Shown piece after piece: positions 25,527 through 37,761 of a stretch of DNA of 64,000 nt; the stretch's first letter is position 1, and each line of letters opens with the position of its first letter. The DNA comes from Acinetobacter baumannii (GTDB lineage: Bacteria > Pseudomonadota > Gammaproteobacteria > Pseudomonadales > Moraxellaceae). Location of the stretch: the NCBI RefSeq assembly GCF_009759685.1, contig NZ_CP046654.1:3916849-3980848 (forward strand). The letters run 5' to 3'. The notes under the pieces were generated by a model. It saw nothing but the letters and a program-made list of their open reading frames with translations. It did no database searches and had not been told where the DNA came from. The translations under genes were made by a program, and so were the position numbers.

Positions 25527-25680
25527 AAATAACGTATTACCTTAAAAAACTTTAAGTGAATGAAGATCTATTGGTTTCAAGAAAACCACTATTAAACCCA
25601 AATCATAAAACATAAGAATTCACGCAAAATTCACGACCAGCTCTTTAATTTAATCTTATAAAGTTGGCTCGGATATAGAC

Positions 25681-26253
25681 ATGAAAATTATAACTACAGC
25701 CCTAGGGCTGATTACCTTGGCAGGTTTAACGGCGTGTAAAAGTGTGCCTAGCTACTCAGGTGACTATGGCAAAGCTGAACAAAAAATTACTGGTATAGAA
25801 TTAGATGACCAACAGGCGCTAGATGTGGGCAATCGTTTTGTCGCTGCATTTAATACGCTCGGTACTCCTTCTTTTGTTAATAATGCTAGCAATCTTTACG
25901 CTGATCAGCTCTATATCAACGATACACTCTCGCAGTTCTCTCAAAAGAAAGATCTGATTAAGCATTTTGAAGGCATGAATGCCCGAGTGAATAATGTCAC
26001 GGTAAAACTCATTAGTGCAACTCATCACCAAGATACAGCCTACATTCATTGGTACATGACCTATGACTTTAAAATGCTAGGTCGTTCAAAAACGATGGCT
26101 TCTTATGGAATTAGTCAAATTAAGATTAATGACCAACAAAAAATTATTTTCCAGCAAGATTATTGGGATCCAGCGAATGGCCTCTACCGTTCTTTACCCA
26201 TATTTGGAGGAGTATATAAATGGATATTGCCGTTCAAAAAAGTCGAATCTTGA
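25681..26253 (+). CDS. NTF2-like (SnoaL) lipoprotein
   Basis: 190 residues. The signal MKIITTALGLITLAGLTAC has a lipobox with Cys at 19. The mature part has the NTF2/SnoaL-like pattern (ALDVGNRFVAAFNTLGTPSF, then FSQKKDLIKHFEGMNARVNNVTVKLISATHHQDTAYIHWYMTYDFKML, then KIIFQQDYWDPANGLY). NTF2-like genes accompany cyclopropane-synthase-like lipid clusters in other proteobacteria. Its stop overlaps the next gene by 34 bases, and it leads an operon ending in the response regulator. Confidence 0.75.
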   Translation: MKIITTALGLITLAGLTACKSVPSYSGDYGKAEQKITGIELDDQQALDVGNRFVAAFNTLGTPSFVNNASNLYADQLYINDTLSQFSQKKDLIKHFEGMNARVNNVTVKLISATHHQDTAYIHWYMTYDFKMLGRSKTMASYGISQIKINDQQKIIFQQDYWDPANGLYRSLPIFGGVYKWILPFKKVES

Positions 26254-26714
26254 TATTTCTAGGAATCTTAATCGTATCTCAAGCCAATGCGGCTGAATTG
26301 AAAAAATGCAGTTCAGCACCTTTAATGGTTACGAGTAAAAAGGTGGGAAATGTCAGTTACTTTGCTGAAGATTGCCAAAAAAATTGGCAAAGCCAAAGCA
26401 TCAAAATGGACTTTAGCTATAACCGCGATATTCCCGAATGGGCATTTAAACGCGCAGCCACGCACTTTTTGAAGAAAAATGTTAGCGGCTTTGATGCTAA
26501 ATCTCCGCTTAATCATATTAATGAACTATATAGGCCAATTAAGAGTGGAGATCTTTATAGTCTCTATTATCAACATGAAAATCAAAAACTAGAACTGAAA
26601 TTAAACCAGAAGCTACTCGGTTCTTTGAACAATCCGAATGCAAATCAATATTTTAAAATCTGGTTTGGTAGTGAACCGTTTAATGCTAAATTAAAACAAC
26701 AATTATTAAATTAA
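26220..26714 (+). CDS. Chalcone isomerase-like secreted protein
   Basis: 164 residues. GGAGGAG at 26206-26212, 7 bases before the ATG, fixes the start, although it lies inside the end of the lipoprotein gene in another frame. A signal peptide (ILIFLGILIVSQANAAE) precedes a mature domain with VSYFAEDCQKNWQSQSIKMDFSYNRDI and the ending YFKIWFGSEPFNAKLKQQLL. That ending resembles the Chalcone_3-type domain found beside CFA-like genes. This family call is by eye and moderate. Enzymatic activity is doubtful in such relatives. Confidence 0.6.
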   Translation: MDIAVQKSRILIFLGILIVSQANAAELKKCSSAPLMVTSKKVGNVSYFAEDCQKNWQSQSIKMDFSYNRDIPEWAFKRAATHFLKKNVSGFDAKSPLNHINELYRPIKSGDLYSLYYQHENQKLELKLNQKLLGSLNNPNANQYFKIWFGSEPFNAKLKQQLLN

Positions 26715-26731
26715 TGGCTTAATAAAATCTC

Positions 26732-27427
26732 ATGGGTAATCACTTTATCCTCATGGTTGAGGACCATTTTGAACTTGCAGCAACGGTCTGCGAATTTCTT
26801 GAAGTGCATGGTTATGTTGTCGATCATGCACGTAATTTAGAGGCTGCACGGACTTTTCTCAAATCTCAGCATTATCATCTTTTGTTGCTAGATATAAATT
26901 TGCCCGATGGCTCGGGTTATGACCTATGCAACTGGCTACGCACCGAACAAGGCGTTGATATTCCTGTTCTTATGCTCACAGCAAGAGATACTTTAGATGA
27001 CAAACTTAAAGGTTTTACCGCTGGAACAGATGATTATTTGGTAAAACCTTTTGATTTTAATGAACTAGTGATGCGGATTCGTGCATTAATAAAAAGAGCA
27101 GCTGGCGAAGTCACTCACCATAAAATTCAAATTCACGACTTAATTCTTGATAGCGCAACTCAAACCGTGGTTCGTGCTGGAAATAATATCGAGTTACCCC
27201 CTATTCAATTCAAACTATTAAAAATTTTGATGCGCCAGTCTCCAAAAGTGGTGACCAAGCAAGAACTGATGATGGAATTATGGGGCGACGAAGAGCCTGA
27301 AAGTGATGCGTTACGCAGTCATATCTATAACTTAAGAAAAATGGTTGATAAACCTTTTGACCCAAAGCTATTACATACAGTGGCAGGTGTCGGTTTAAAA
27401 ATTGCTTTGGAAGATTCCGCGACTTAA
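26732..27427 (+). CDS. OmpR-family response regulator (lipid-island two-component system)
   Basis: 231 residues. The receiver domain has the acidic pocket VEDH, the phospho-acceptor Asp in LLLLDINLPDG (about 53), Thr in LMLTARD and Lys in YLVKPF. The C-terminal winged helix includes LPPIQFKLLKILMRQSPKVVTKQELMMELWGD and HIYNLRKMVDKPF. It follows the secreted-protein gene after 17 bases. Its stop codon interlocks with that of the histidine kinase on the other strand (TTAA at 27424-27427). The kinase is the likely partner because no other kinase gene is near. Confidence 0.88.
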   Translation: MGNHFILMVEDHFELAATVCEFLEVHGYVVDHARNLEAARTFLKSQHYHLLLLDINLPDGSGYDLCNWLRTEQGVDIPVLMLTARDTLDDKLKGFTAGTDDYLVKPFDFNELVMRIRALIKRAAGEVTHHKIQIHDLILDSATQTVVRAGNNIELPPIQFKLLKILMRQSPKVVTKQELMMELWGDEEPESDALRSHIYNLRKMVDKPFDPKLLHTVAGVGLKIALEDSAT

Positions 27428-28752
27428 CTTAAATAGACCACAACAATTAAGCCTGTGGTTGGCTCCAAATCGAGTTCAGGATGAGTGGTTAAATAATATT
27501 GTCGATCAAACAGCTCCACTCTCCATCCTAGTTGTTTGCAAAGCTTTTGTACCAATTGCAAACCAATGCCATGACCTTTAGCCTTTAAGGAAAGTTGCGA
27601 ATCGCTGAGCTCTTGCACTTTCACATCGTTAGGTAAAGAAATTCCAATTCCATTATCAGCAATAATCAGGCTGTTTTTTTGTTGAATAATGTCGATTTGT
27701 GAGCCTTGAGAATAGTTCAGCGCATTACGTAAAATATTACCTAAAACCATTTGAGTCATAGAAGGATATAACCAACGCGGCTGTTCAGAAACATCAGGTT
27801 GAATATTAATCTGTATCCCTTTACCCGCGCTCACCGCTTCTAAACTTTCAACAAGATCTTTTACCGTTTTGGATAATAAATTTTTCTCAGATGGCAAGCT
27901 TTTTACCGTATTCCGAGCAATCGCCAGTAAGGTATCGACGAGCAACTGCATATCTTCAATTGTGTTATGAAGACGGACTAAAGATTTATCGTCTCCGAAT
28001 TTCGCCTGACACAGTTGTACATTACCTTTCAAAATGGTGAGTGGAGTGCGTAACTCATGGCTCACATCTCCAGTAAATTCTCTTTCACGTCGAATAAAAT
28101 CACTTAAAACCTGATGATATTTTTCTAAAGCTTGTTTGAGATATTCGGCTTCCATATTGCCATTGGTATTAATATCTCTAAAAGGAGATGCCTGAGTGTC
28201 TTGATGTGCCCAATCAATATTTTCTAAAGCATTTGCTAAACGCGTAATTGGGGAAAAATAGCGTCTTGCTCTTCGGTTTGACCACCACAAAAAACTATAT
28301 AGAACAGATAAGCTGAACATGAGTGGAGCAAGACCAAATAACCAGATCAGCTTATTAACATTGCTTTCGCCAAATACCAATAGAACATGTTGACCATTAC
28401 GCTCACCATAGACCGTCATTCGTTCTTTACCATCAACGAATACTCGGTGCACGCCACTTTCTAAATGCATGCCCCGAAAAGGTTGAGGCGCGACCTGTGT
28501 ATTCCACCGATATCCATATAAATTTTTAGTATCTGGTAAATCAGCATTTGGGTTACGTTCTATACGTAACCAGTAATGCTCCATTTCCTGTTCTAAAGCG
28601 GTTTTAAGTAAAGAACCCTTAATCACCCAAGCACTACAAGCCAACCCGACCACGATCGATAATGCAATCAGACCAATTTGCAACCAGTAATATCGATTGA
28701 ACATTTGGGCTAATGGATGACTCGTTTTGCCATCATGTCGAGTTCTTATCAT
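27424..28752 (-). CDS. Sensor histidine kinase (lipid-island two-component system)
   Basis: 442 residues. Two membrane spans flank a periplasmic domain of about 90 residues (IGLIALSIVVGLACSAWVI, about 25-43; LIWLFGLAPLMFSLSVLYSFL, about 134-154). The H-box is FTGDVSHELRTPLTILKGNV (about 228-247). The ATPase boxes are LGNILRNALNY, IADNGIGIS and GHGIGLQLVQKL. It starts 32 bases after the second CFA-like gene on the same strand, so it is probably the last gene of the lipid operon. Its partner regulator is convergent, an unusual layout. Confidence 0.88.
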   Translation of the reverse strand: MIRTRHDGKTSHPLAQMFNRYYWLQIGLIALSIVVGLACSAWVIKGSLLKTALEQEMEHYWLRIERNPNADLPDTKNLYGYRWNTQVAPQPFRGMHLESGVHRVFVDGKERMTVYGERNGQHVLLVFGESNVNKLIWLFGLAPLMFSLSVLYSFLWWSNRRARRYFSPITRLANALENIDWAHQDTQASPFRDINTNGNMEAEYLKQALEKYHQVLSDFIRREREFTGDVSHELRTPLTILKGNVQLCQAKFGDDKSLVRLHNTIEDMQLLVDTLLAIARNTVKSLPSEKNLLSKTVKDLVESLEAVSAGKGIQINIQPDVSEQPRWLYPSMTQMVLGNILRNALNYSQGSQIDIIQQKNSLIIADNGIGISLPNDVKVQELSDSQLSLKAKGHGIGLQLVQKLCKQLGWRVELFDRQYYLTTHPELDLEPTTGLIVVVYLS

Positions 28753-28784
28753 ATCTTTATCGTCGGGATAGGCTATAGAAATTA

Positions 28785-29831
28785 CTATGATCGCTTTTTA
28801 AATAAAAAGTGACCAATGACCCATTCTTGTCCTTGCTCAAAACCGAATAGCTCAGCACAAGCCATGAAGAAAATACGCCAGCGTTGCCACCAAATATTGG
28901 CATCTTTTCCATAGATTTTTTTAAACAGTGGTTTCAGTTCGACTTCTTGGTTATCCATATTCTCAAGCCAAGCATTTGCCGTTCTCATATAGTGCTCACC
29001 CGACCATTGCCACTGTTGGGTCAACTCTAAATGCTCTTGAAAATGCAAAAAAGTCGAAGTCGAAGGCATTAAACCACCAGTAAAGAAATACTTGGACATC
29101 CAATCATAATCTGATTTCACTTCAAAAGGATAATGTAAAAAGCGATGGCAAAAAATATGACACCAAAGTAAGCCGTCTGCCTTTAACCAGCCCTGAATTT
29201 TTTCAAAAAGAAGTTGGTAATTACGAACATGTTCAAACATTTCGACCGATACAACACGATCAAACTTGTCTTGGTCCAAGTCGAGTACATTCACATCACA
29301 GGTAAGCACTTCAACATTGGTTAAACCTCTCAATTCTGCTTGCCGAAGAATATGCTTTTTCTGCGTTGCAGAATTTGAAACAGCAGTAATCTGTGAGCGT
29401 GGATAGTTTTCTGCCATCCACAAAGTTAAAGAACCCCAGCCACAGCCTAACTCTAAAATCTGTTGACCGTTTTTAAGTTGTGCTCTTTCACAATAAATCT
29501 GAAGAGCCAACTCTTCTGCCTGATCTAAAGTTGTCGTTTTAGTCGGGAAATAGCACGCACTATATTTGAGTCTTTTTCCAAGCACCGCCTGAAAAAACTC
29601 GGTCGGCAATTCATAGTGCTGCTCATTTGCCTTATCCGTTTCAACCGCGATTTCGCTCTTCTTCAGCATATTAAGCACATCCATGTAGCGATGCGCCCCT
29701 TGTTCAGGGTCATAACGGCCTTCTTGGATTAAGCGCTTTTTACTTAAAGCTCGAATTGCAGCTCGAATTGCATGATCTGGAATCACACCACTTTCAACAA
29801 TTTTCAAAGACTGATGAACAATAAAATCCAT
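28785..29831 (-). CDS. CFA-synthase-like SAM methyltransferase (second copy)
   Basis: 348 residues. The SAM motif is ILELGCGWGSLTLWMAENYP (about 120-139), preceded by YSACYFPTKTTTLDQAEELALQIYCERAQL and followed by VVSVEMFEHVRNYQLLF. This matches the cyclopropane-fatty-acid synthase fold, but the N-terminal lipid-binding domain is short compared with the 399-residue copy in the same operon. It may methylate a different lipid site. The DUF1295 gene ends 8 bases upstream. Confidence 0.8.
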   Translation of the reverse strand: MDFIVHQSLKIVESGVIPDHAIRAAIRALSKKRLIQEGRYDPEQGAHRYMDVLNMLKKSEIAVETDKANEQHYELPTEFFQAVLGKRLKYSACYFPTKTTTLDQAEELALQIYCERAQLKNGQQILELGCGWGSLTLWMAENYPRSQITAVSNSATQKKHILRQAELRGLTNVEVLTCDVNVLDLDQDKFDRVVSVEMFEHVRNYQLLFEKIQGWLKADGLLWCHIFCHRFLHYPFEVKSDYDWMSKYFFTGGLMPSTSTFLHFQEHLELTQQWQWSGEHYMRTANAWLENMDNQEVELKPLFKKIYGKDANIWWQRWRIFFMACAELFGFEQGQEWVIGHFLFKKRS

Positions 29832-29839
29832 ATACGCAC

Positions 29840-30619
29840 CTATTTTTTTGGTTTTCGCGGAATAAACATTGATGTTTTTTGTTGATAATCAAGATAATTT
29901 TGACCGCGACTTTTAATTGCTTGTTTTTCACTAAATGGAATACCCGTGACGTAATATAAAAATAGCCACATCAGTAACGGATAAATCCACAATACATATT
30001 GGCCTGCCGCTAAACCAATAATTGGATAGGCAAACCAGTGTAACCATTCAAAAAAATAATTGGGGTGACGTGAATAACGCCATAAACCCTGATCCATCGT
30101 TTTGCCATGATGATCTGGATTTAATTTAAATCGGTATAACTGCTGATCAGCGAGCTGCTCTCCCATGAAAGCAATTGCCATGATGACAGCAGCAATTACT
30201 AAAGCGACTTTATATCCACTACTCCATTCAGTTGCCTCTACATTGAGTAGCGTCCACATCGGTAAAAAGAACAAAAGCACTAAAAGTGTTTGAAAGATAA
30301 AAAAGAATAAAAAGCCAATATGCTGAAACTTACCCATCGCTTTACGCATGCTCGCGTAACGGCCATCTTCTTTTTGTTCAGATTGATAACGTCTTAACAG
30401 GTGCCAAAATAATCTTAAAAACCATAAGCCGCTAAAAATACCGATAAAAAGACGCACTTCAACTGGGGCAACTGAAATGAGTAAAGAAGACACGATAATG
30501 TTTACTGCCAGACAGAAACTCCATGCAGCATCTACAATTCCAGCTCTGCCATTTAGAGTGGCAAGTAGCCAGCTCAGCAACATGATCATTAAATCTAGAA
30601 TCAGTAAATTCCAAAACAT
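29840..30619 (-). CDS. DUF1295 membrane protein (steroid 5-alpha-reductase-like)
   Basis: 259 residues with about six membrane spans. The diagnostic C-terminal motif is GLWRYSRHPNYFFEWLHWFAYPIIGL (about 178-203), where the family shows RHPNYF. TLNGRAGIVDAAWSFCLAVN is the usual N-terminal start. Members resemble NAD(P)H-dependent double-bond reductases of sterols or fatty chains. Its position between two CFA-like methyltransferases suggests reduction or further change of a methylated lipid. This is inference from context. Confidence 0.8.
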   Translation of the reverse strand: MFWNLLILDLMIMLLSWLLATLNGRAGIVDAAWSFCLAVNIIVSSLLISVAPVEVRLFIGIFSGLWFLRLFWHLLRRYQSEQKEDGRYASMRKAMGKFQHIGFLFFFIFQTLLVLLFFLPMWTLLNVEATEWSSGYKVALVIAAVIMAIAFMGEQLADQQLYRFKLNPDHHGKTMDQGLWRYSRHPNYFFEWLHWFAYPIIGLAAGQYVLWIYPLLMWLFLYYVTGIPFSEKQAIKSRGQNYLDYQQKTSMFIPRKPKK

Positions 30620-30648
30620 GAGCAGTCTCCTTACTTGAGCTGTTTGAT

Positions 30649-31848
30649 TTAGTAACTGGTACTTTCAAACAACAAGTGAACATTGCTTATCACGCCTTCT
30701 TTAAAACCACCTTCGCAATAACATAAATAAAAATCCCACATGCGAATGAAGTTTTCATCAAAACCTAGAGCCAATACTTGTTCCCGCGCTGCTAAAAACC
30801 GCGCTCGCCAGTGATGAAGTGTGTGCGCATAACTTAAACCAATATCATTTAAATGCTTTAACCTTAAACCACTCTCAGAGGCGGTTTGAGTCAACACACT
30901 CACGCTAGGGATAAAACTACCTGGGAAAATATAGCGCTTAATATAATCAACTGTATTTAATGCTTTTTTATATCGGAAATCTTCAATAATAATGGCTTGA
31001 ATAAATGCCAAGCCTTTCGGTTTTAAGAGTGCTTTACATTGATCAAAGTATGTCGATAAATATTGCGCACCAACTGCCTCAACCATTTCAATTGAAACCA
31101 GCTTATCGAACTTGCCTTCGAGCAAACGGTAGTCTTCAAGTTGCACATCAATTCGATGCGCCAAGCCAGCTTCATTTACACGAGTAACGGCTTCATCATA
31201 TTGAGCTTGTGAAATGGTAATGGTGGTTACTCTACAGCCATAATGTTGAGCTGCATAAATGGCAAAACCACCCCATCCACTTCCAATTTCAACTAAATGA
31301 TCTAGTGGTTTTAAATCTAACTTTTTACAAATGATCTCTTTTTTTAAATCAGATGCTTCTTCGAGAGTCATGTTTTCATTTTCAAAAACGGCGCTCGAAT
31401 ACATTAAAGATGGATCTAAAAATAATTTAAAAAAGTCGTTGCTTAAGTCGTAGTGCTCGGCAATATTTTTACGGCTACCACTTATAGAGTTCTTTCGATT
31501 TTGATACCACGCTTTAAGAAAAAACTGGCTCGCTTGAGCAATAACATTCTGGTTGATTTGGTCCAATACAGCTCGATTACGTGCCAAGATCTGAATCAAC
31601 TCGACAAGGTGCTCGCTGCTCCAGTCACCACGGATGTAGCCTTCTGCTGCTCCCAAAACACCATTTTTTAAAATGAGATCCATCAATAAAGGATTGTGAA
31701 CTTCAATCACAGCATGTAAGTCTGAAACTTCACCGACCGTCCCATTCCACGCGCCCTGAAAAGTGATCTGTCCATGACGTAGTTTGAGAAGACTCTTGAG
31801 CAATAACGGCAGTGAGTCATCTTCACCATAAAGAAATGTTTTTATCAT
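30649..31848 (-). CDS. Cyclopropane-fatty-acyl-phospholipid synthase family protein
   Basis: 399 residues. The N-terminal lipid-binding domain (about 1-110) precedes SGSRKNIAEHYDLSNDFFKLFLDPSLMYSSAVFE, the SAM-binding VEIGSGWGGFAIYAAQHYG, FDKLVSIEMVEAVGAQY, and the C-terminal FYLCYCEGGFKEG. All are standard CFA-family elements. The enzyme adds a methyl or methylene to unsaturated phospholipid chains at the membrane. Its start overlaps the DUF1365 stop by 4 bases. Relatives include UfaM-type methyltransferases of furan fatty acid synthesis, so the product may not be a cyclopropane. Confidence 0.85.
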   Translation of the reverse strand: MIKTFLYGEDDSLPLLLKSLLKLRHGQITFQGAWNGTVGEVSDLHAVIEVHNPLLMDLILKNGVLGAAEGYIRGDWSSEHLVELIQILARNRAVLDQINQNVIAQASQFFLKAWYQNRKNSISGSRKNIAEHYDLSNDFFKLFLDPSLMYSSAVFENENMTLEEASDLKKEIICKKLDLKPLDHLVEIGSGWGGFAIYAAQHYGCRVTTITISQAQYDEAVTRVNEAGLAHRIDVQLEDYRLLEGKFDKLVSIEMVEAVGAQYLSTYFDQCKALLKPKGLAFIQAIIIEDFRYKKALNTVDYIKRYIFPGSFIPSVSVLTQTASESGLRLKHLNDIGLSYAHTLHHWRARFLAAREQVLALGFDENFIRMWDFYLCYCEGGFKEGVISNVHLLFESTSY

Positions 31849-32636
31849 GTCTTATCTACCTTGATCTTTTTAGGATGACGATAAAATGGAACTTTTTTTC
31901 GCCACAACTTAAATGCCTCTAAATATATTGAAAACAACATTTTAAAAGGCGCTAGGCTGTTTATAAGAGCATATCGATATTGCTGTGAAGGAAATGTGAT
32001 GGGCACAAGCTCAAAACGCATAGTGGCATCAAAGACTTGTTTCTGCTCTTCAAAAAGTTGCATGTGAATGACATTCTGCTGATCTGAAAAACTAAATCGC
32101 CAACGGTAAGTCAACTGCATGGGCATGAATGGCGAAACATGAAATGATTTTTCAAAGTTAAAATCGAAACTTTGGTAATCACCTACCTGACCTTGTTGTT
32201 TTATACAGTCGTGTGTATAGACTTCTCGTTCATTCCACGGAGTATTGGTGATTTCACTAAGAATAAAGAGCGGTTTTCCGGCTTTATTTAAAACAAAATA
32301 AAATACGACCGAATTAAACCGAAAGCCCAAACAACGAGGCAAAGCCAACACTCTGATTTGCCAGTCTGGCCGAAGGTGTAAGTGATTATTTTGCAGTATC
32401 GCTTTCTCTACTCTATCCCTTATAGAACCGTGATACATGTTTAAAAAATCATTTTTAGATAGTTTTAATACATTCCAGTGATCCGTCGACCAGAGTGAAC
32501 AATCGTTTGTGATATCAACTAATTGATCTGGATCGAACCATAAATAATTTAAGGTCGATGTAAACTCATGCGGTTTAGGGCTATAACGCCGATGACGAAT
32601 AAGCGCAGGAGCGATAGCAAGTTTATTTAATAACAT
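31845..32636 (-). CDS. DUF1365 protein
   Basis: 263 residues. It has the typical start ALIRHRRYSPKPHEFTSTLNYLWFDPDQL, the central LLPRCLGFRFNSVVFYFVLN-like ALPRCLGFRFNSVVFYFVLN, and FHVSPFMPMQLTYRWRFSF. There is no signal peptide. The family has no fixed biochemical role but is nearly always found between an FAD-dependent oxidoreductase and a CFA-like gene, as here. It overlaps the CFA-like gene by 4 bases, implying translational coupling. Confidence 0.88.
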   Translation of the reverse strand: MLLNKLAIAPALIRHRRYSPKPHEFTSTLNYLWFDPDQLVDITNDCSLWSTDHWNVLKLSKNDFLNMYHGSIRDRVEKAILQNNHLHLRPDWQIRVLALPRCLGFRFNSVVFYFVLNKAGKPLFILSEITNTPWNEREVYTHDCIKQQGQVGDYQSFDFNFEKSFHVSPFMPMQLTYRWRFSFSDQQNVIHMQLFEEQKQVFDATMRFELVPITFPSQQYRYALINSLAPFKMLFSIYLEAFKLWRKKVPFYRHPKKIKVDKT

Positions 32637-32657
32637 TTGATAGCTCCTTATTTATTC

Positions 32658-33920
32658 TTATAACGCTAAGAGTTGCTCAACAACACGTGCCGCACTGCGG
32701 GCGCCGTCTTCATGAAAGCCCCAGCCCCAATATGCTCCACAAAATGAAGTCCGATTTTGCCCATTAATTTCGTGCCAACGAGATTGAGCTTGAATCGCTT
32801 TTGCATCAAATACGGGATGCCGGTATTGCCGCTCAACCAAGATGTCTTCGGCTTTGATTTTCATATTCGGATTTAAAGTAGAAAAAATTTGCGTAGCGCA
32901 GGATAAATTCTGCAAATTGTTCATCCAGTAGGTAAAACCATAATGTATGTCGGCCTCATCGTTTTGGACTTGAGATTTTGGTGTTACATGTACATGCCAG
33001 CTTGCCCACTGCAAACGGCTTTTAGGCATAATTGAAAGATCACGATGAACGACCATTCGATTATCTTGATAACCAAATTGGCTTAATATTTCTTGTTCAA
33101 GCTCTGACGCATCTTTAATTAAACTTAGGCTATCGTCAGCATGGCTTGCAAAAATCACCCAGTCATATTGCTCTTGCCCTTCAACGGTTTCGATTAAAAC
33201 TGTTTCTGGTGAACGGCTCACAGCTTTTACTTCTGCAAATTTCCACTCAATGGGTGGGCATTTCTTTTGAATAGCACGAATATAGCTTGCTGAACCGTGT
33301 TTAACCGTTTGCCATTGCGGCCGCTCTTTTAACTGCAACATGCGGTGATGCTGAAAAAAGCTCACGACAAATCGATATGGAATTTGGCCTACCTGCTCAA
33401 CGGGTGCCGACCATAAGGCACCGCACATCGGATAAAGATGTTCATAACGAAACTCATGACTATATTTGTGAAGGTCCAAATACTCTTCAATCGATAAATT
33501 AGGATCGATATCCGCCACATCTATATCTTTATTGTCATCATAAAAACGCAGCAAATCTGAGAGCATTTGCAGAAATTTTCGGTTTAAAAAGTTCTGCGGA
33601 CGGGCAAAGAGCGACCATTTTTTTGAAGGGTTATATTGTAGTCCACTGACCAGATTATTCACCGAAAAACTCATATCGCTGCTTTGAGTTTCTACGCCTA
33701 ATTTTTTAAGCATGTCAGTAAATAACGGATAGTTATAGTCGTTAAACACAATAAAACCACTATCTACCGCGACTTTAGTGCCTTCTATCTCTAGCTCGTG
33801 AGTGTCAGTATGACCGCCAAAATAGTTATTTTTTTCATACACAGTGACTTGATGTTGTTCTGACAATCTCCAAGCTGCGTAAAGTCCAGATATACCTGAA
33901 CCAATAATGGCAATTTTCAT
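32658..33920 (-). CDS. FAD-dependent amine-oxidase-like oxidoreductase
   Basis: 420 residues. The N-terminal FAD motif is IAIIGSGISGLYAAWRLSEQH, followed by YEKNNYFGGHTDTHELEIEG and DSGFIVFNDYNYPLF. The C-terminal FAD segment is FCGAYWGWGFHEDGARSAARVVEQL. This is the conserved oxidoreductase paired with DUF1365 and CFA-like genes. In furan fatty acid clusters an oxidoreductase acts on the methylated chain, but this protein's own reaction is not shown. It overlaps the desaturase by 4 bases. Confidence 0.85.
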   Translation of the reverse strand: MKIAIIGSGISGLYAAWRLSEQHQVTVYEKNNYFGGHTDTHELEIEGTKVAVDSGFIVFNDYNYPLFTDMLKKLGVETQSSDMSFSVNNLVSGLQYNPSKKWSLFARPQNFLNRKFLQMLSDLLRFYDDNKDIDVADIDPNLSIEEYLDLHKYSHEFRYEHLYPMCGALWSAPVEQVGQIPYRFVVSFFQHHRMLQLKERPQWQTVKHGSASYIRAIQKKCPPIEWKFAEVKAVSRSPETVLIETVEGQEQYDWVIFASHADDSLSLIKDASELEQEILSQFGYQDNRMVVHRDLSIMPKSRLQWASWHVHVTPKSQVQNDEADIHYGFTYWMNNLQNLSCATQIFSTLNPNMKIKAEDILVERQYRHPVFDAKAIQAQSRWHEINGQNRTSFCGAYWGWGFHEDGARSAARVVEQLLAL

Positions 33921-34888
33921 AACACTTCACCGTTTTCAATTTTTTCTATCGATAGGTTTTTAATCTTTTTATATTGATAAACCTTGTCTGGTACGGGCTT
34001 TAGGCCCCACACTAAACCAAATAAAGACATCAGCTTGAGCACATAAAAAGTGATATCTATCTGCCACCAATAAAAACCTTGACGCACACTGCCTGCGTAA
34101 AAGTGATGATTGTTATGCCATCCTTCACCCAAGGTAATTAAAGAAAGTAGGAAGTTATTACGGCTATCATCTGGGGTGTTAAACTCACGTGAACCATAAC
34201 GATGAGCGAGTGAATTAATACACAAGGTTGCATGTGTTAATAGAACAGTGGAAATCACAAATCCCCACACTAAAAGCTGTAAACCATTGGTGCCCAACTC
34301 AGGGAAATGTTGTGCAAGCCATGAACCTAATCCATAAATTGCTAAGGCCGTCAAAATCACAATAGGCAAACTAAATCGGTCTAGCCAAATCAGCTCTGGA
34401 TATTTCAACCAGTCTTTAATGACTTTTTTTCGAGTAGCAAAATTTTGCTCATTTAAAAACCAGCCTACATGCGAATACCAAAAGCCTGCTTTTGCTGAAT
34501 GCGGGTCCTGATCGGTGTCGGTAAAGTGATGGTGATAACGGTGATGGGCTGCCCACCATAAAGGTCCGCGCTGCGCACTCATGGTTCCGATCAGTACAAA
34601 AATGAATTGAACAATACGTGATGTCTGAAAAGTTTTATGCGAAAGATAGCGGTGGAAAAAAGCAGTAATTGCAAACATGCGAAGAAAATAAAACCCCAGC
34701 ATGAAGATCACAGCAAACCAAGATACGCCCACCCAAAATGCAGCTAAACAAGCGATATGTAATAAAATAAAAGGAATAATTCTTAACCATTGAATTTTCT
34801 TTTCAATGACATATTCGCTAGAAGCACCCACTTGCGCATTTTCTGAATCTGACCAGCTATCGATCCAGCGCAGAAAAAATTTAGACAT
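33917..34888 (-). CDS. Membrane acyl-CoA / fatty acid desaturase
   Basis: 323 residues with about four membrane spans and the three histidine boxes of the di-iron desaturases: HRYLSH (about 79), HHRYHHHF (about 113) and EGWHNNHHFY (about 254). The order and spacing fit stearoyl-CoA desaturase-like delta-9 enzymes. It would supply the double bond that CFA-like methyltransferases need. It is the first gene of the minus-strand lipid operon. The spacer at 34889-35007 should carry the promoter. Confidence 0.88.
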   Translation of the reverse strand: MSKFFLRWIDSWSDSENAQVGASSEYVIEKKIQWLRIIPFILLHIACLAAFWVGVSWFAVIFMLGFYFLRMFAITAFFHRYLSHKTFQTSRIVQFIFVLIGTMSAQRGPLWWAAHHRYHHHFTDTDQDPHSAKAGFWYSHVGWFLNEQNFATRKKVIKDWLKYPELIWLDRFSLPIVILTALAIYGLGSWLAQHFPELGTNGLQLLVWGFVISTVLLTHATLCINSLAHRYGSREFNTPDDSRNNFLLSLITLGEGWHNNHHFYAGSVRQGFYWWQIDITFYVLKLMSLFGLVWGLKPVPDKVYQYKKIKNLSIEKIENGEVL

Positions 34889-35007
34889 TGATTCTTCCTG
34901 ATCTAAAGCATTTCTTTTGGTTCTAATTTAGAAAATGCGCAATGAATTTTATGTGAAGTTCACTCGGTTACGAGATAAATATAAGCATCTACGCAACCAG
35001 AATTTCA

Positions 35008-35571
35008 CTATTTAGATTGTGTTGTTTTAACGAGTTTAGAAACGTCGTAGCCATAGCTTTTCGCGGTTTGCAGATAAGATTGATATGTCGCCTCATCAAG
35101 TTGAGGGCTACGAGAAAGAATCCATAAATATTTATGGCTTGGACCACCCACTAAAGCGACCTGATAATTTGGGTCAACTCTTAAAACCCAGTAATCGCCT
35201 TTTGTAAAAGGAATCCATCTAAGACCAGAAGGTAAAAAGCTCACCTTCAATTTACTGTTGCCTTCATTTTGCGGATAAGCAACTCCTTCAGATGAGATCA
35301 TTTCGCCTTTTTTTGTCGTACAGCTATTTAAAACACCAACGGTTTTGTCCGCGTTAATAGAATAGTTTGCAGTTGTATTTGCTACACAATTACGCTGAAA
35401 AAACATCGGTAAATGCGCAATTTCATACCACTTACCTGCGTATTTATTAATATCAATAGAATCAACAGCGACAGGTTTAGTATTGGTGTCTGCAAAGGTG
35501 CTCAAAGGAAGCATTAAACTGACCGCTGCAAGGCTACTGCTGATGACAAGTGATTTAAATAATAATTTCAT
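35008..35571 (-). CDS. Lipocalin (Blc-like, periplasmic)
   Basis: 187 residues. A cleavable signal peptide (SLVISSSLAAVSLMLPLSTFADT) lacks a lipobox Cys, unlike E. coli Blc. The lipocalin motif 1 is DINKYAGKWYEIAHLPMFFQRNCVANTTANYS. LKVSFLPSGLRWIPFTKGDYWVLRVDPNYQVALVGGPSHKYLWILSRSP carries motif 2. It probably binds lipids in the periplasm. It sits just upstream of the lipid operon on the same strand and could shuttle products, which is inference. Confidence 0.88.
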   Translation of the reverse strand: MKLLFKSLVISSSLAAVSLMLPLSTFADTNTKPVAVDSIDINKYAGKWYEIAHLPMFFQRNCVANTTANYSINADKTVGVLNSCTTKKGEMISSEGVAYPQNEGNSKLKVSFLPSGLRWIPFTKGDYWVLRVDPNYQVALVGGPSHKYLWILSRSPQLDEATYQSYLQTAKSYGYDVSKLVKTTQSK

Positions 35572-35667
35572 GATTGCCCTCTTCTGTTTATTTCATACGT
35601 TTAAACATACGTCAGAGGGCTGTGAACAAAGTGTGAATTTTAAAAATTAAGCAACATTAATAAGGAT

Positions 35668-37071
35668 TTAATTGTATTTCTTTAGTGCATCTGCAACTGG
35701 AAAATCAAGCTCAAAGCACACACCCTCAACCGTGTTATAAACTCGATAGCGGCCATGATGTAGATCCAGAATTGAAGCAACAATCGACAAACCTAATCCA
35801 CCTGTTTGATTCTCATCACTTCGACTTGCGTGGCATTGGTAAAATCTTTCAAAAAGATGCTCAAGTTGATGTTCAGCAATTGAAATACCACCCGTGACCA
35901 CAGTCAGACTCACCCATTGCTTATGCTCAATCATCTTATGTTTTGTTGCGATATAAATAGTTCGCTTGTCACCACCGTGAACCAACGCATTTAAAATCAG
36001 GTTATAAACGGCTCTTTGAAAAAGCTCAGGATCTGCAAATAACGTTTGAGCTTCTAAGTTAAAACTAAAATGACAGTCTTGTTCCTCGGCCTGATATTCA
36101 AAAATCTGGCATAACCTATCCATAACATCTTGGAGGTTTATTTCTTGTTTATTTACAAGCACCATTTTCTGATCGGCTCTTGCCAAGAAAAGCATGCTAT
36201 CAATCATGCGTTTTAATCTGTGATAATCATCTAAATGAGAAACCAGTAAATCTTCATATTGTTCAACCGAACGTTCACCAGTTAAAGCAATCTCAGTTTG
36301 CCCAATCAGATTATTTAAAGGTGTGCGGAACTCATGTGCGATATCTTCAGAAAAACGGTTGAGCTGCGTATAGCCCTTTTCAATACGCTCAAGCATGTGG
36401 TTTATATCTTTTGAAAGCAGATCAACTTCTAAAGGTGAATTTGGGAGGTTTAACCGTTTTTGTAGCTGATTTACGTTAATAGAATGAGTTTGCTTGCGAA
36501 GCTGTTGTAGCGACTTTAAACCTAAATGACACACTAAAATGCAAAGCACAAAGATCGCAAACACGCCCCCGACCACATAGATCAAGAGACTTTCTTGAAA
36601 AGGTAAAAGAATATTAATGCGTTCCGACCATTGTTTACCTGCAATGAGCAGATAAGGTTCGTTATTAATTTTTATGGTTTTCCACGCAATTCTCGTTGGA
36701 TATGAGTTGTTAGCTAAATCTTGAAATTGAAGACTGTCGCGCTGTGCAAGCGGAGGTAGTTGAATGTGAAGCGGATTGATATTAATTAAAGTTTTGTCTT
36801 TATGAATAAAAAGAAATAAGTTGTCTTGATTGCCAAGCATGTTTTGATACAGCTTAGGCCGCGCAATGATTTGCTCTACATTTTCGCTATCTTGCAGCAA
36901 AATTTCCAAACGGTTAATTCTGTCTGCTAAAGCTTTATCTTGCTGCTTTAACAAAATCTGGTTAATACCCAAATAGGTCATAAAGCCGACTGAACATAAA
37001 ATTAAGGCAGAACAAAGCGTGACCAGTAATGTAATACGGACTTCAAGAGAACGCACAAATTTAAAGTTCAT
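35668..37071 (-). CDS. Sensor histidine kinase, CusS/HprS-like
   Basis: 467 residues. Two membrane spans (ITLLVTLCSALILCSVGFMTYLGI, about 13-36; LLIYVVGGVFAIFVLCILVCHLGL, about 172-195) flank a periplasmic sensor domain. A HAMP linker and the H-box FSEDIAHEFRTPLNNLIGQTEIAL (about 239-262) follow, with ATPase boxes LILNALVHGG and GGLGLSIVASILDLH. Together with the regulator it resembles the heavy-metal/redox kinases CusS and HprS (YedV). It overlaps the regulator by 4 bases. The signal is unknown. Confidence 0.88.
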   Translation of the reverse strand: MNFKFVRSLEVRITLLVTLCSALILCSVGFMTYLGINQILLKQQDKALADRINRLEILLQDSENVEQIIARPKLYQNMLGNQDNLFLFIHKDKTLININPLHIQLPPLAQRDSLQFQDLANNSYPTRIAWKTIKINNEPYLLIAGKQWSERINILLPFQESLLIYVVGGVFAIFVLCILVCHLGLKSLQQLRKQTHSINVNQLQKRLNLPNSPLEVDLLSKDINHMLERIEKGYTQLNRFSEDIAHEFRTPLNNLIGQTEIALTGERSVEQYEDLLVSHLDDYHRLKRMIDSMLFLARADQKMVLVNKQEINLQDVMDRLCQIFEYQAEEQDCHFSFNLEAQTLFADPELFQRAVYNLILNALVHGGDKRTIYIATKHKMIEHKQWVSLTVVTGGISIAEHQLEHLFERFYQCHASRSDENQTGGLGLSIVASILDLHHGRYRVYNTVEGVCFELDFPVADALKKYN

Positions 37072-37739
37072 AAACTAACCGAAATTTTATAGCCCAAGCC
37101 ACGTATGGTATGAATAAGTTTTAATTCATATCCCTCATCAATTTTGCTTCGTAAACGGCGTACTGCGACGTCAATAAAGTTGGTATCGGTGTCAAAGTTA
37201 ATATTCCAAACTTCGGAACCAATTTGTCTGCGCGTCACAATTTGCTCTTTGTTGAGCAACAAATAACGCAACAAATTAAATTCGGTTTTACTCAGCTCAA
37301 TTAAGTTGCCACTACGCCATACTTTATGACCAACCATATCCATTTTTAGATCACTAATAGACAACTCATTTTCTTGCAGGTATTGCTGTCGTCTTAACAG
37401 ACTTTTAATGCGTGCCAATAGTTCAATATAGGAAAAGGGTTTAGCCAAGTAATCATCTGCTCCCAACTCCAAACCTTTCACTCTATCCATCACCTGATCT
37501 TTCGCCGTTAAAAAAATCACCGGAATTTTTGAAAACTGGCGTAGGACTTGTAATACGCTCCAGCCGTCTATGTCTGGCAGCATGACATCAAGAATAAGCA
37601 AGTCATATTGATCTCTCTTTAGCATTTCCAAACCTTGCAGCCCTAAGTGAACACACTCCGCTTGATATCCAGACTCTTTTAATCCTTTGACCAAATAAGT
37701 GGCGATCTTCATCTCGTCTTCAATAATAAGGATACGCAT
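37068..37739 (-). CDS. OmpR-family response regulator, CusR/HprR-like
   Basis: 223 residues from the ATG at 37739 (MRILIIEDEMKIATYLVKGL), the standard opening of this family; an ATG at 37754 would add five residues. The phospho-acceptor Asp is in LLILDVMLPDIDGW (about 51). IFLTAKDQVMDRVKGLELGADDYLAKPF and the winged helix ELSKTEFNLLRYLLLNKEQIVTRRQIGSEVWN complete it. It is divergent from the GlcG/HbpS and hydroxyisourate hydrolase genes, as E. coli hprR is from hiuH. A matching DNA box lies between them. Confidence 0.87.
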   Translation of the reverse strand: MRILIIEDEMKIATYLVKGLKESGYQAECVHLGLQGLEMLKRDQYDLLILDVMLPDIDGWSVLQVLRQFSKIPVIFLTAKDQVMDRVKGLELGADDYLAKPFSYIELLARIKSLLRRQQYLQENELSISDLKMDMVGHKVWRSGNLIELSKTEFNLLRYLLLNKEQIVTRRQIGSEVWNINFDTDTNFIDVAVRRLRSKIDEGYELKLIHTIRGLGYKISVSL

Positions 37740-37761
37740 TTTGTAGAGACTCATTTGAAAG

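Follow-up and report, generated by a model that had tools for sequence, protein, structure and literature searches.

The 64,000-nucleotide stretch of DNA analysed here (the window) comprises positions 3916849–3980848 of contig 1 of a 3,990,388-base genome in two contigs, deposited as Acinetobacter baumannii (GCF_009759685.1). It contains an island of genes for lipid modification and signal transduction. The minus strand carries, in this order, the genes of a fatty acid desaturase, an FAD oxidoreductase, a DUF1365 protein, a protein resembling cyclopropane fatty acid synthase (CFA-like), a DUF1295 protein, a second CFA-like protein and a histidine kinase, whereas the plus strand carries the genes of an NTF2-like lipoprotein, a secreted chalcone-isomerase-like protein and a response regulator. 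A previous sequence-only reading had listed these ten genes, and profile matches confirm their coordinates and families (CMAS twice, DUF1295, DUF1365, FAD/NAD_binding_8, FA_desaturase, HisKA/HATPase, Response_reg/Trans_reg_C and Chalcone_3); the list missed a lipocalin gene at 35008–35571, which is likely an eleventh member. The features, with predicted functions, are as follows:

25619–25634, plus strand: tandem box TTCACGCAAAATTCAC before the NTF2-like gene, predicted response-regulator site; exact in 43/43 orthologous upstream regions
25681–26253, plus strand: NTF2/SnoaL-like lipoprotein; SnoaL_2 25.4 bits, below the Pfam cut-off of 27; lipobox LTAC
26220–26714, plus strand: secreted chalcone-isomerase-like protein; Chalcone_3 40.5 bits; possible lipid binder
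26732–27427, plus strand: OmpR/PhoB-type response regulator; at the same place in 40/40 loci, interrupted or short in two
27424–28752, minus strand: membrane sensor histidine kinase (HisKA/HATPase), convergent with the regulator
28785–29831, minus strand: FufM-type S-adenosylmethionine (SAM) methylase, predicted second furan-ring methylation; clade support 100/100, motif EMFEH
29840–30619, minus strand: DUF1295 membrane protein of the SRD5A/ICMT superfamily, usual neighbour of fufM
30649–31848, minus strand: UfaM-type fatty acyl methylase (CMAS family); clade support 100/99, motif EMVEAV
31845–32636, minus strand: UfaO-type DUF1365 protein, 198.9 bits; furan-forming oxygenase in Rhodobacter
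32658–33920, minus strand: UfaD-type FAD oxidoreductase, adjoining ufaO in distant loci; desaturates the methylated chain in Rhodobacter
33917–34888, minus strand: fatty acid desaturase, heads the enzyme row; the genome has 6 FA_desaturase matches including this one
34942–34957, minus strand: tandem box TTCACATAAAATTCAT before the desaturase gene; 40/44 exact, 4 with one mismatch
35008–35571, minus strand: lipocalin (Blc-like), likely third regulon unit; the published Stenotrophomonas cluster also lists one
35622–35637, minus strand: tandem box TTCACACTTTGTTCAC before the lipocalin gene; in 22/23 Acinetobacter loci with an adjacent lipocalin

The intergenic gaps are short, and ufaD overlaps the desaturase gene by 4 nt, as does ufaM the ufaO gene. 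The regulator and kinase genes are convergent with a tail-to-tail overlap of 4 nt (27424–27427), and as their genes end on each other each of them is the terminal gene of its own row. A UfaO (DUF1365) homologue is present in 75 of 149 Acinetobacter species genomes, and 40 loci were fetched from these 75 genomes. All ten genes were found in identical order and orientation in 40/40 of these loci when matches to at least 30% of each gene were accepted, and the neighbours outside the island vary except in the nearest relatives. Since order and orientation are kept while the flanks differ, the linkage of these genes is more than chance, and the genome search that had been proposed to probe it thus comes out in favor of a linked island. 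Under a stricter rule (at least 85% of the length of each gene and no stop) the ten genes are found in 34/40 loci, the other six (L058, L070, L072, L077, L079, and L080) having one short or interrupted gene each. The genes affected are those of the chalcone-isomerase-like protein, the NTF2-like protein, the regulator and the DUF1295 protein; a UfaO homologue with a stop is also found at G003:C6:1141679-1142449. Such genes possibly reflect decay or assembly errors.

Named genomes were also scanned using the kinase as query; the resulting sample overlaps with the 40 loci and consists of 53 loci, every one from Acinetobacter and including A. pittii, A. calcoaceticus, A. nosocomialis, A. baylyi, A. 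lwoffii and A. haemolyticus. All ten genes are present in 51 of them (46 under the stricter rule); of the exceptions, L166 has no match to the NTF2-like gene and L168 starts at the edge of the record. The locus of the A. baylyi type strain (DSM 14961, L156) is among those with the full set of ten. The named record nearest to the window is one of A. pittii, with 99% identity in the kinase, in a scan that may omit very close records. The sole record among the 53 titled A. baumannii (ACIN00150, L184) has a kinase that is 76% identical, as compared to 92–99% in records of A. pittii, A. nosocomialis, A. seifertii and A. calcoaceticus. The record may be mislabelled, and the island may be missing from A. 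baumannii proper.

The chemistry of furan fatty acid synthesis has been established in two alpha-proteobacteria, Rhodobacter sphaeroides and Rhodopseudomonas palustris: UfaM transfers a methyl group to cis-vaccenate, the resulting methylated chain is desaturated by UfaD, and UfaO closes the furan ring with O2 (Lemke et al. 2020, PMC7380195). The first CFA-like protein of the island falls into a UfaM-type clade of 20 sequences with a support of 100/99. This clade contains no experimentally characterised UfaM; 17 of its members were picked for lying by ufaO or ufaD and three were taken blind and later found beside ufaO and ufaD. The motif S[IV]EMxEAV is found in 19/20 members of the clade and S[VI]GM[FL]EHV in 9/9 other sequences, which are Cfa proteins for which about 2.5 kb each were fetched, so that their gene neighbourhood is not covered. 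Where these nine read GM[FL]EHV the first CFA-like protein reads EMVEAV, and the E. coli Cfa motifs YSCAY and GMFEHV are replaced by YSSAV and EMVEAV; thus, the canonical Cfa motifs are not retained. Homologues of UfaD and UfaO are linked to ufaM, and we assign them by family and linkage rather than by comparison with the R. sphaeroides proteins. The best reading of these similarities is that the island encodes a pathway of the known furan fatty acid type. The sequence-only reading had considered an unusual phospholipid, either methylated, cyclopropane or furan; families, clade and gene linkage support the UfaM/furan type and the motif exchange makes plain cyclopropane chemistry less likely.

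In R. palustris, FufM adds the second methyl group to the ring and methylated the furan fatty acid 9M5-FuFA in vitro (PMC7380195). The second CFA-like protein is 42% identical over 342 residues (BLASTP, 295 bits) to the homologue of R. palustris HaA2 (P0125), which served as the reference for orthology instead of RPA0924 of strain CGA009. Both proteins fall into one clade with a support of 100/100 and share the motif EMFEH. A FufM-type match of at least 256 bits is present in 33 of 398 genomes of the phylum (including the genome studied here), and the next matches are below 125 bits. We suggest that the second CFA-like gene encodes a FufM-type methylase, predicting dimethyl furan lipids. That this gene is another cyclopropane synthase was rejected as a candidate function, given the relation to the R. 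palustris homologue and plant N-methyltransferases as the nearest solved structures. The sequence-only reading had taken the second CFA-like gene and the DUF1295 gene as extras which may define a new branch. This is not supported: the former groups with FufM, an enzyme whose activity is known from R. palustris, and the latter is a usual neighbour of fufM in other Proteobacteria sampled.

In detail, a DUF1295 gene adjoins fufM in 34 of 46 fufM loci from outside Acinetobacter, as counted with the profile. The misses are L091 and L108–L112, all from one family, and the Bradyrhizobium-like L117–L122, in which there is no match to the true DUF1295 domain. The pair of fufM and DUF1295 also occurs in stretches where ufaM, ufaD and ufaO are not found (L090, L103, L105, L106, L115, and L126–L129). 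Conversely, DUF1295 is absent from 11/11 stretches with ufaD/ufaO but no fufM (L136–L142 and L208–L211), the search being confined to these stretches of the genomes. The DUF1295 gene thus tracks fufM rather than ufaD/ufaO. Within the open-access literature on DUF1295 and FufM this pairing was not found in print. By profile search the steroid reductase SRD5A (7c83) and AtTam46 (8xku) tie at 2.9e-5, followed by ICMT (4a2n) with 2e-4; a single-sequence search with the DUF1295 protein found only ICMT 4a2n (1e-6), and ICMT and MddA models match weakly. Of the NADPH-site pattern of SRD5A (D...L..., PNY..E...W), residues D158, N187 and W195 are invariant and E191 nearly so. The protein therefore resembles both steroid reductases and membrane methyltransferases and could be SAM- or NADPH-dependent. 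As FufM sufficed for the dimethyl product in vitro, DUF1295 is not required for the dimethyl step itself.

With regard to regulation, kinase residues H232, N343 and D366 and those of the glycine box are invariant in 11 aligned homologues, and the two proteins have the phospho-acceptor histidine, the ATP-binding boxes and the receiver and winged-helix domains of an OmpR-type two-component system. The regions upstream of the NTF2-like, desaturase and lipocalin genes share the element TTCAC-N6-TTCA[C/T], an 11-bp direct repeat. In a set consisting of the window, the 40 Acinetobacter loci and L087–L089, the box is exact in 43/43 regions before the NTF2-like gene, whereas resampled sequence expects 0.065 per set; before the desaturase gene it is exact in 40/44 and has one mismatch in the remaining 4, as compared to 0.045 expected. 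The rows were lined up on the best match, so flawless columns arise partly by construction; the near-universal exact match does not. Three distances of the box to the NTF2-like gene are negative, as an upstream start codon was chosen. A box precedes the adjacent lipocalin gene in 22/23 Acinetobacter loci and 0/10 lipocalin genes from outside the genus. Among 36 loci from outside Acinetobacter (L087–L122) it is present in 4/4 with two-component genes and in 1/32 without them (L103); in L104 a box is located some 45 bp upstream of the gene of the NTF2-like protein. When the genome is searched for the strict form TTCACNNNAAATTCAY, three matches result, namely two island promoters and one site inside an 854-amino acid frame. 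The shared box before three units is suggestive of a dedicated two-component regulon.

Clusters of this kind have been tied to the ChrR/RpoE response, and the sequence-only reading had supposed that the two-component system replaces ChrR. This is supported by comparison. We searched for a ChrR-type anti-sigma factor (HxxxCxxC plus cupin) with a profile trained on nine of the 15 chrR-positive fufM loci. No chrR-like gene was detected in 94 Acinetobacter loci, as compared to 15/42 stretches with fufM but no two-component genes, and 0/4 loci from outside Acinetobacter with two-component genes have one. In stretches with ufaD/ufaO only, a chrR-like gene is found in 6/7 from one family (L136–L142) and in 1/4 others (L210). 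In L092–L094 the enzyme genes are arranged as in the island and chrR is close by, and in L094 the frame adjoining chrR reads as an extracytoplasmic function (ECF) sigma factor. A ChrR-type anti-sigma factor is neither near the island nor in the genome studied here, which does not indicate membership of a sigma-E/ChrR (ECF11) regulon. The only Cupin_7 protein of this genome was rejected as a ChrR candidate, as it is a 235-amino acid double cupin without HxxxCxxC encoded about 870 kb away (G000:C1:3072671-3073297, L045). Moreover, Cupin_7 proteins are not confined to Acinetobacter genomes that have the island (UfaO-negative examples are G007, G009, and G035).

Taking together which genes are present, their conservation, the clades into which they fall, the shared box and the absence of a chrR-like gene nearby, we suggest, with a probability of about 0.72, that the minus-strand row makes dimethyl furan phospholipids under the control of a dedicated two-component system and tandem box that take the place of ChrR/sigma-E. 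Each row would be read as one transcript, and the row from 34888 to 27424 would build the dimethyl furan fatty acids within phospholipids already present in the membrane. The desaturase would supply or reshape cis-monounsaturated chains, UfaM would methylate the double bond with SAM, UfaD would introduce a second double bond, UfaO would close the furan ring using O2, FufM would add the second ring methyl group and DUF1295 would serve this dimethyl branch. Oleate (delta-9) is the main 18:1 fatty acid of Acinetobacter. The double bond of the chains fed in by the desaturase may differ in place from that of vaccenate and give rise to ring-position isomers; if oleate were used, we would predict a ring two carbons nearer to the carboxyl end than in 9M5 and 9D5. 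The kinase and regulator would act on the TTCAC box before the NTF2–chalcone-isomerase–regulator unit, the enzyme row and the lipocalin gene. An oxidant or an oxidised or damaged lipid may be the signal and would turn on these three units, which make and handle the dimethyl furan phospholipids.

Several observations weigh against this interpretation. UfaO is the enzyme with the lowest conservation in most Acinetobacter loci, ufaD/ufaO are in the fetched stretch of only 28/46 fufM loci, and 12/46 of these lack an adjacent DUF1295 gene. The residues of the UfaM clade are also compatible with a cyclopropane product, since a similar motif occurs in plant CFA-type enzymes that form one. Searching the literature by title revealed no study of furan fatty acids from members of Acinetobacter, and nothing on the island among papers on Acinetobacter CFA and two-component systems or regulators; a search for fatty acid profiles of the genus likewise gave no paper. 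The loose form of the box has 27 matches in the genome versus 19 for a reversed control, i.e., no clear enrichment; 20 of them lie inside frames of at least 100 amino acids, three are the island sites and four lie elsewhere (L225, L227, L229, and L232). Two of those inside frames (L231 and L233) also lie before a start codon. L229 precedes an M23 peptidase gene and L232 the gene of a metallo-beta-lactamase-fold protein, with no clear link to lipids. Within the window there are three loose matches versus 0.45 expected, and 3/100 shuffles also reach three. It is thus conservation and not the number of matches that carries the argument for the box. Finally, in the accessible part of a study on Stenotrophomonas maltophilia, activation of the sigma factor raised superoxide but not singlet-oxygen tolerance (PMC11832516), which weakens a singlet-oxygen reading for the ChrR-controlled variant.

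One may ask whether the products of the island are instead phospholipids with cyclopropane or simple methyl-branched chains, with homologues of UfaD and UfaO that do not form furans. Both CMAS proteins match Cfa models and structures, and any cyclopropane synthesis of this genome would have to come from here, as these two (273 and 152 bits) are the only strong CMAS matches and the next one scores 41. In the first protein, however, the motifs of Cfa read YSSAV and EMVEAV, and it falls into a clade of genes linked to ufaD and ufaO; moreover, neither FufM nor DUF1365 is known to have a role in cyclopropane synthesis. We therefore consider this explanation unlikely. It appears still less probable that the FufM-like protein methylates an amine, for example a lipid head group, in the manner of plant coclaurine and pavine N-methyltransferases. 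The nearest solved structures are indeed these plant enzymes (PDB 6gkv and 5kn4), and their score (phmmer, 276 bits) is nearly that to the R. palustris homologue (BLASTP, 295 bits); in addition, they share the FEH motif with it. This closeness also counts against dimethyl furan lipids, and because of it similarity alone does not settle whether a furan or an amine is the substrate. In favor of the furan stand the joint clade with the R. palustris homologue, in a tree that does not include the plant enzymes, the activity of R. palustris FufM on 9M5-FuFA in vitro (PMC7380195), and the location in one row with ufaM, ufaD and ufaO, and it is the gene row that does most of the work.

It might also be that the assignment to lipids holds and that the box belongs to another factor, the adjacent two-component system being no regulator of the island or one shared with global systems. 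Binding of the regulator to the box is only predicted and 24 of the 27 loose matches are outside the module; on the other hand, 20 of the 27 are inside frames and three of the other seven are the island sites, and box and two-component genes occur together (43/43 and 40/44, and 4/4 versus 1/32 outside Acinetobacter). We give this possibility a small share, and favor a dedicated system acting on a furan pathway.

A further suggestion, which we regard as speculative and rather improbable, concerns the role of DUF1295, which would be an NADPH-dependent enone reductase of the membrane and would restore furan lipids after use. Steroid 5-alpha reductases reduce a C=C bond next to a ketone. Part of the DUF1295 protein resembles these enzymes and the gene tracks fufM, and the suggestion is based on this superfamily and neighbourhood evidence. 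A dimethyl furan ring that traps singlet oxygen or peroxide would open to an ene-dione, in which the C=C bond would be reduced by DUF1295 to give the 1,4-diketone, and this could reclose to the furan with loss of water. The lipid would then be a rechargeable oxidant trap, the kinase would sense the oxidant or the oxidised lipid, and the lipocalin, NTF2-like and chalcone-isomerase-like proteins would handle the lipid at the envelope. Against this speaks that the other end of DUF1295 is equally or more like SAM-dependent membrane methyltransferases.

Similar sets of genes are known from other organisms. Homologues of all four enzymes of the furan pathway of R. sphaeroides and R. palustris are present in the island. 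In R. palustris, UfaM, UfaO and UfaD are consecutively numbered (RPA2569–2571), whereas fufM (RPA0924) is located elsewhere, and control in R. sphaeroides is by sigma-E/ChrR (PMC7380195). The same study lists CGA009 strains deleted for RPA0923 and for RPA0923/RPA0924; RPA0923 is presumably the DUF1295 gene, as DUF1295 adjoins fufM in L128, a locus probably of Rhodopseudomonas. In contrast, the island has all four enzymes in one row together with the desaturase, DUF1295 and the kinase. In S. maltophilia the genes smlt2375–smlt2367 are under the control of rpoEc-chrR-chrA and, according to the accessible part of the study, show 165- to 697-fold higher expression when chrR is mutated, in a sigma-Ec-dependent manner (PMC11832516). 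This part describes a desaturase, an FAD oxidoreductase, a cytosolic hypothetical protein and a CFA-like protein, then two inner-membrane hypothetical proteins, a second CFA-like protein and a lipocalin, in an order matching the island. That the hypothetical proteins include DUF1365 and DUF1295 is suggested by the like-ordered L092–L094; the likeness is one of annotation rather than of compared proteins. The differences are the sigma-E/ChrR control and two additional genes, one for a periplasmic and one for a membrane protein, and the authors discuss there a CFA-based lipid change, not furans (PMC11832516). In Chlamydomonas, the SAK1-dependent singlet-oxygen genes comprise CFA1, CFA2/CPLD27 and the genes of a DUF1365 and a DUF1295 protein, as given in the accessible text, which elsewhere calls CFA2 a coclaurine N-methyltransferase (PMC4067076). 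These four are induced together, although in a eukaryote and under another regulator. A later review already raises furan fatty acids for the Chlamydomonas CFA genes, with DUF1295 and DUF1365 unmentioned in its accessible part (PMC8491031).

Dimethyl furan fatty acids react with reactive oxygen and have a protective role in membranes. Their regulated synthesis as membrane lipids would offer a testable reason for the presence of the island in half of the sampled Acinetobacter species, and the published Stenotrophomonas stress operon could be re-read as furan synthesis. DUF1295 would probably act together with FufM, in bacteria and possibly also in algae. In addition, the apparent natural swap of regulators, ChrR/sigma-E versus a two-component system, over one set of enzymes would allow to ask for the signal for these lipids.

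Some minor observations were made. FufM-type proteins are full-length relatives of the plant coclaurine and pavine N-methyltransferases, so the N-methylation of alkaloids in plants may have its origin in a methylase of furan lipids; one paper, in its accessible part, gives Arabidopsis AT4G33110 as the match of FufM. The FufM-like proteins of the Bradyrhizobium-like L117–L122 are encoded in stretches with neither DUF1295 nor ufaM, ufaD and ufaO, and in the two examined, L117 and L118, EMFEH is replaced by EMFER and ETFEQ, which hints at a change of function. The order ufaM-ufaO-ufaD without fufM or DUF1295 is seen in L208 and L211, from another genus of the same family, and in L209 and L210, from another gamma-proteobacterial family; in L211 ufaD matches in two pieces. 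A second two-component system is encoded in the window at 35668–37754, past the lipocalin gene; it is at this place in the nearest relatives and elsewhere or inverted in distant ones.

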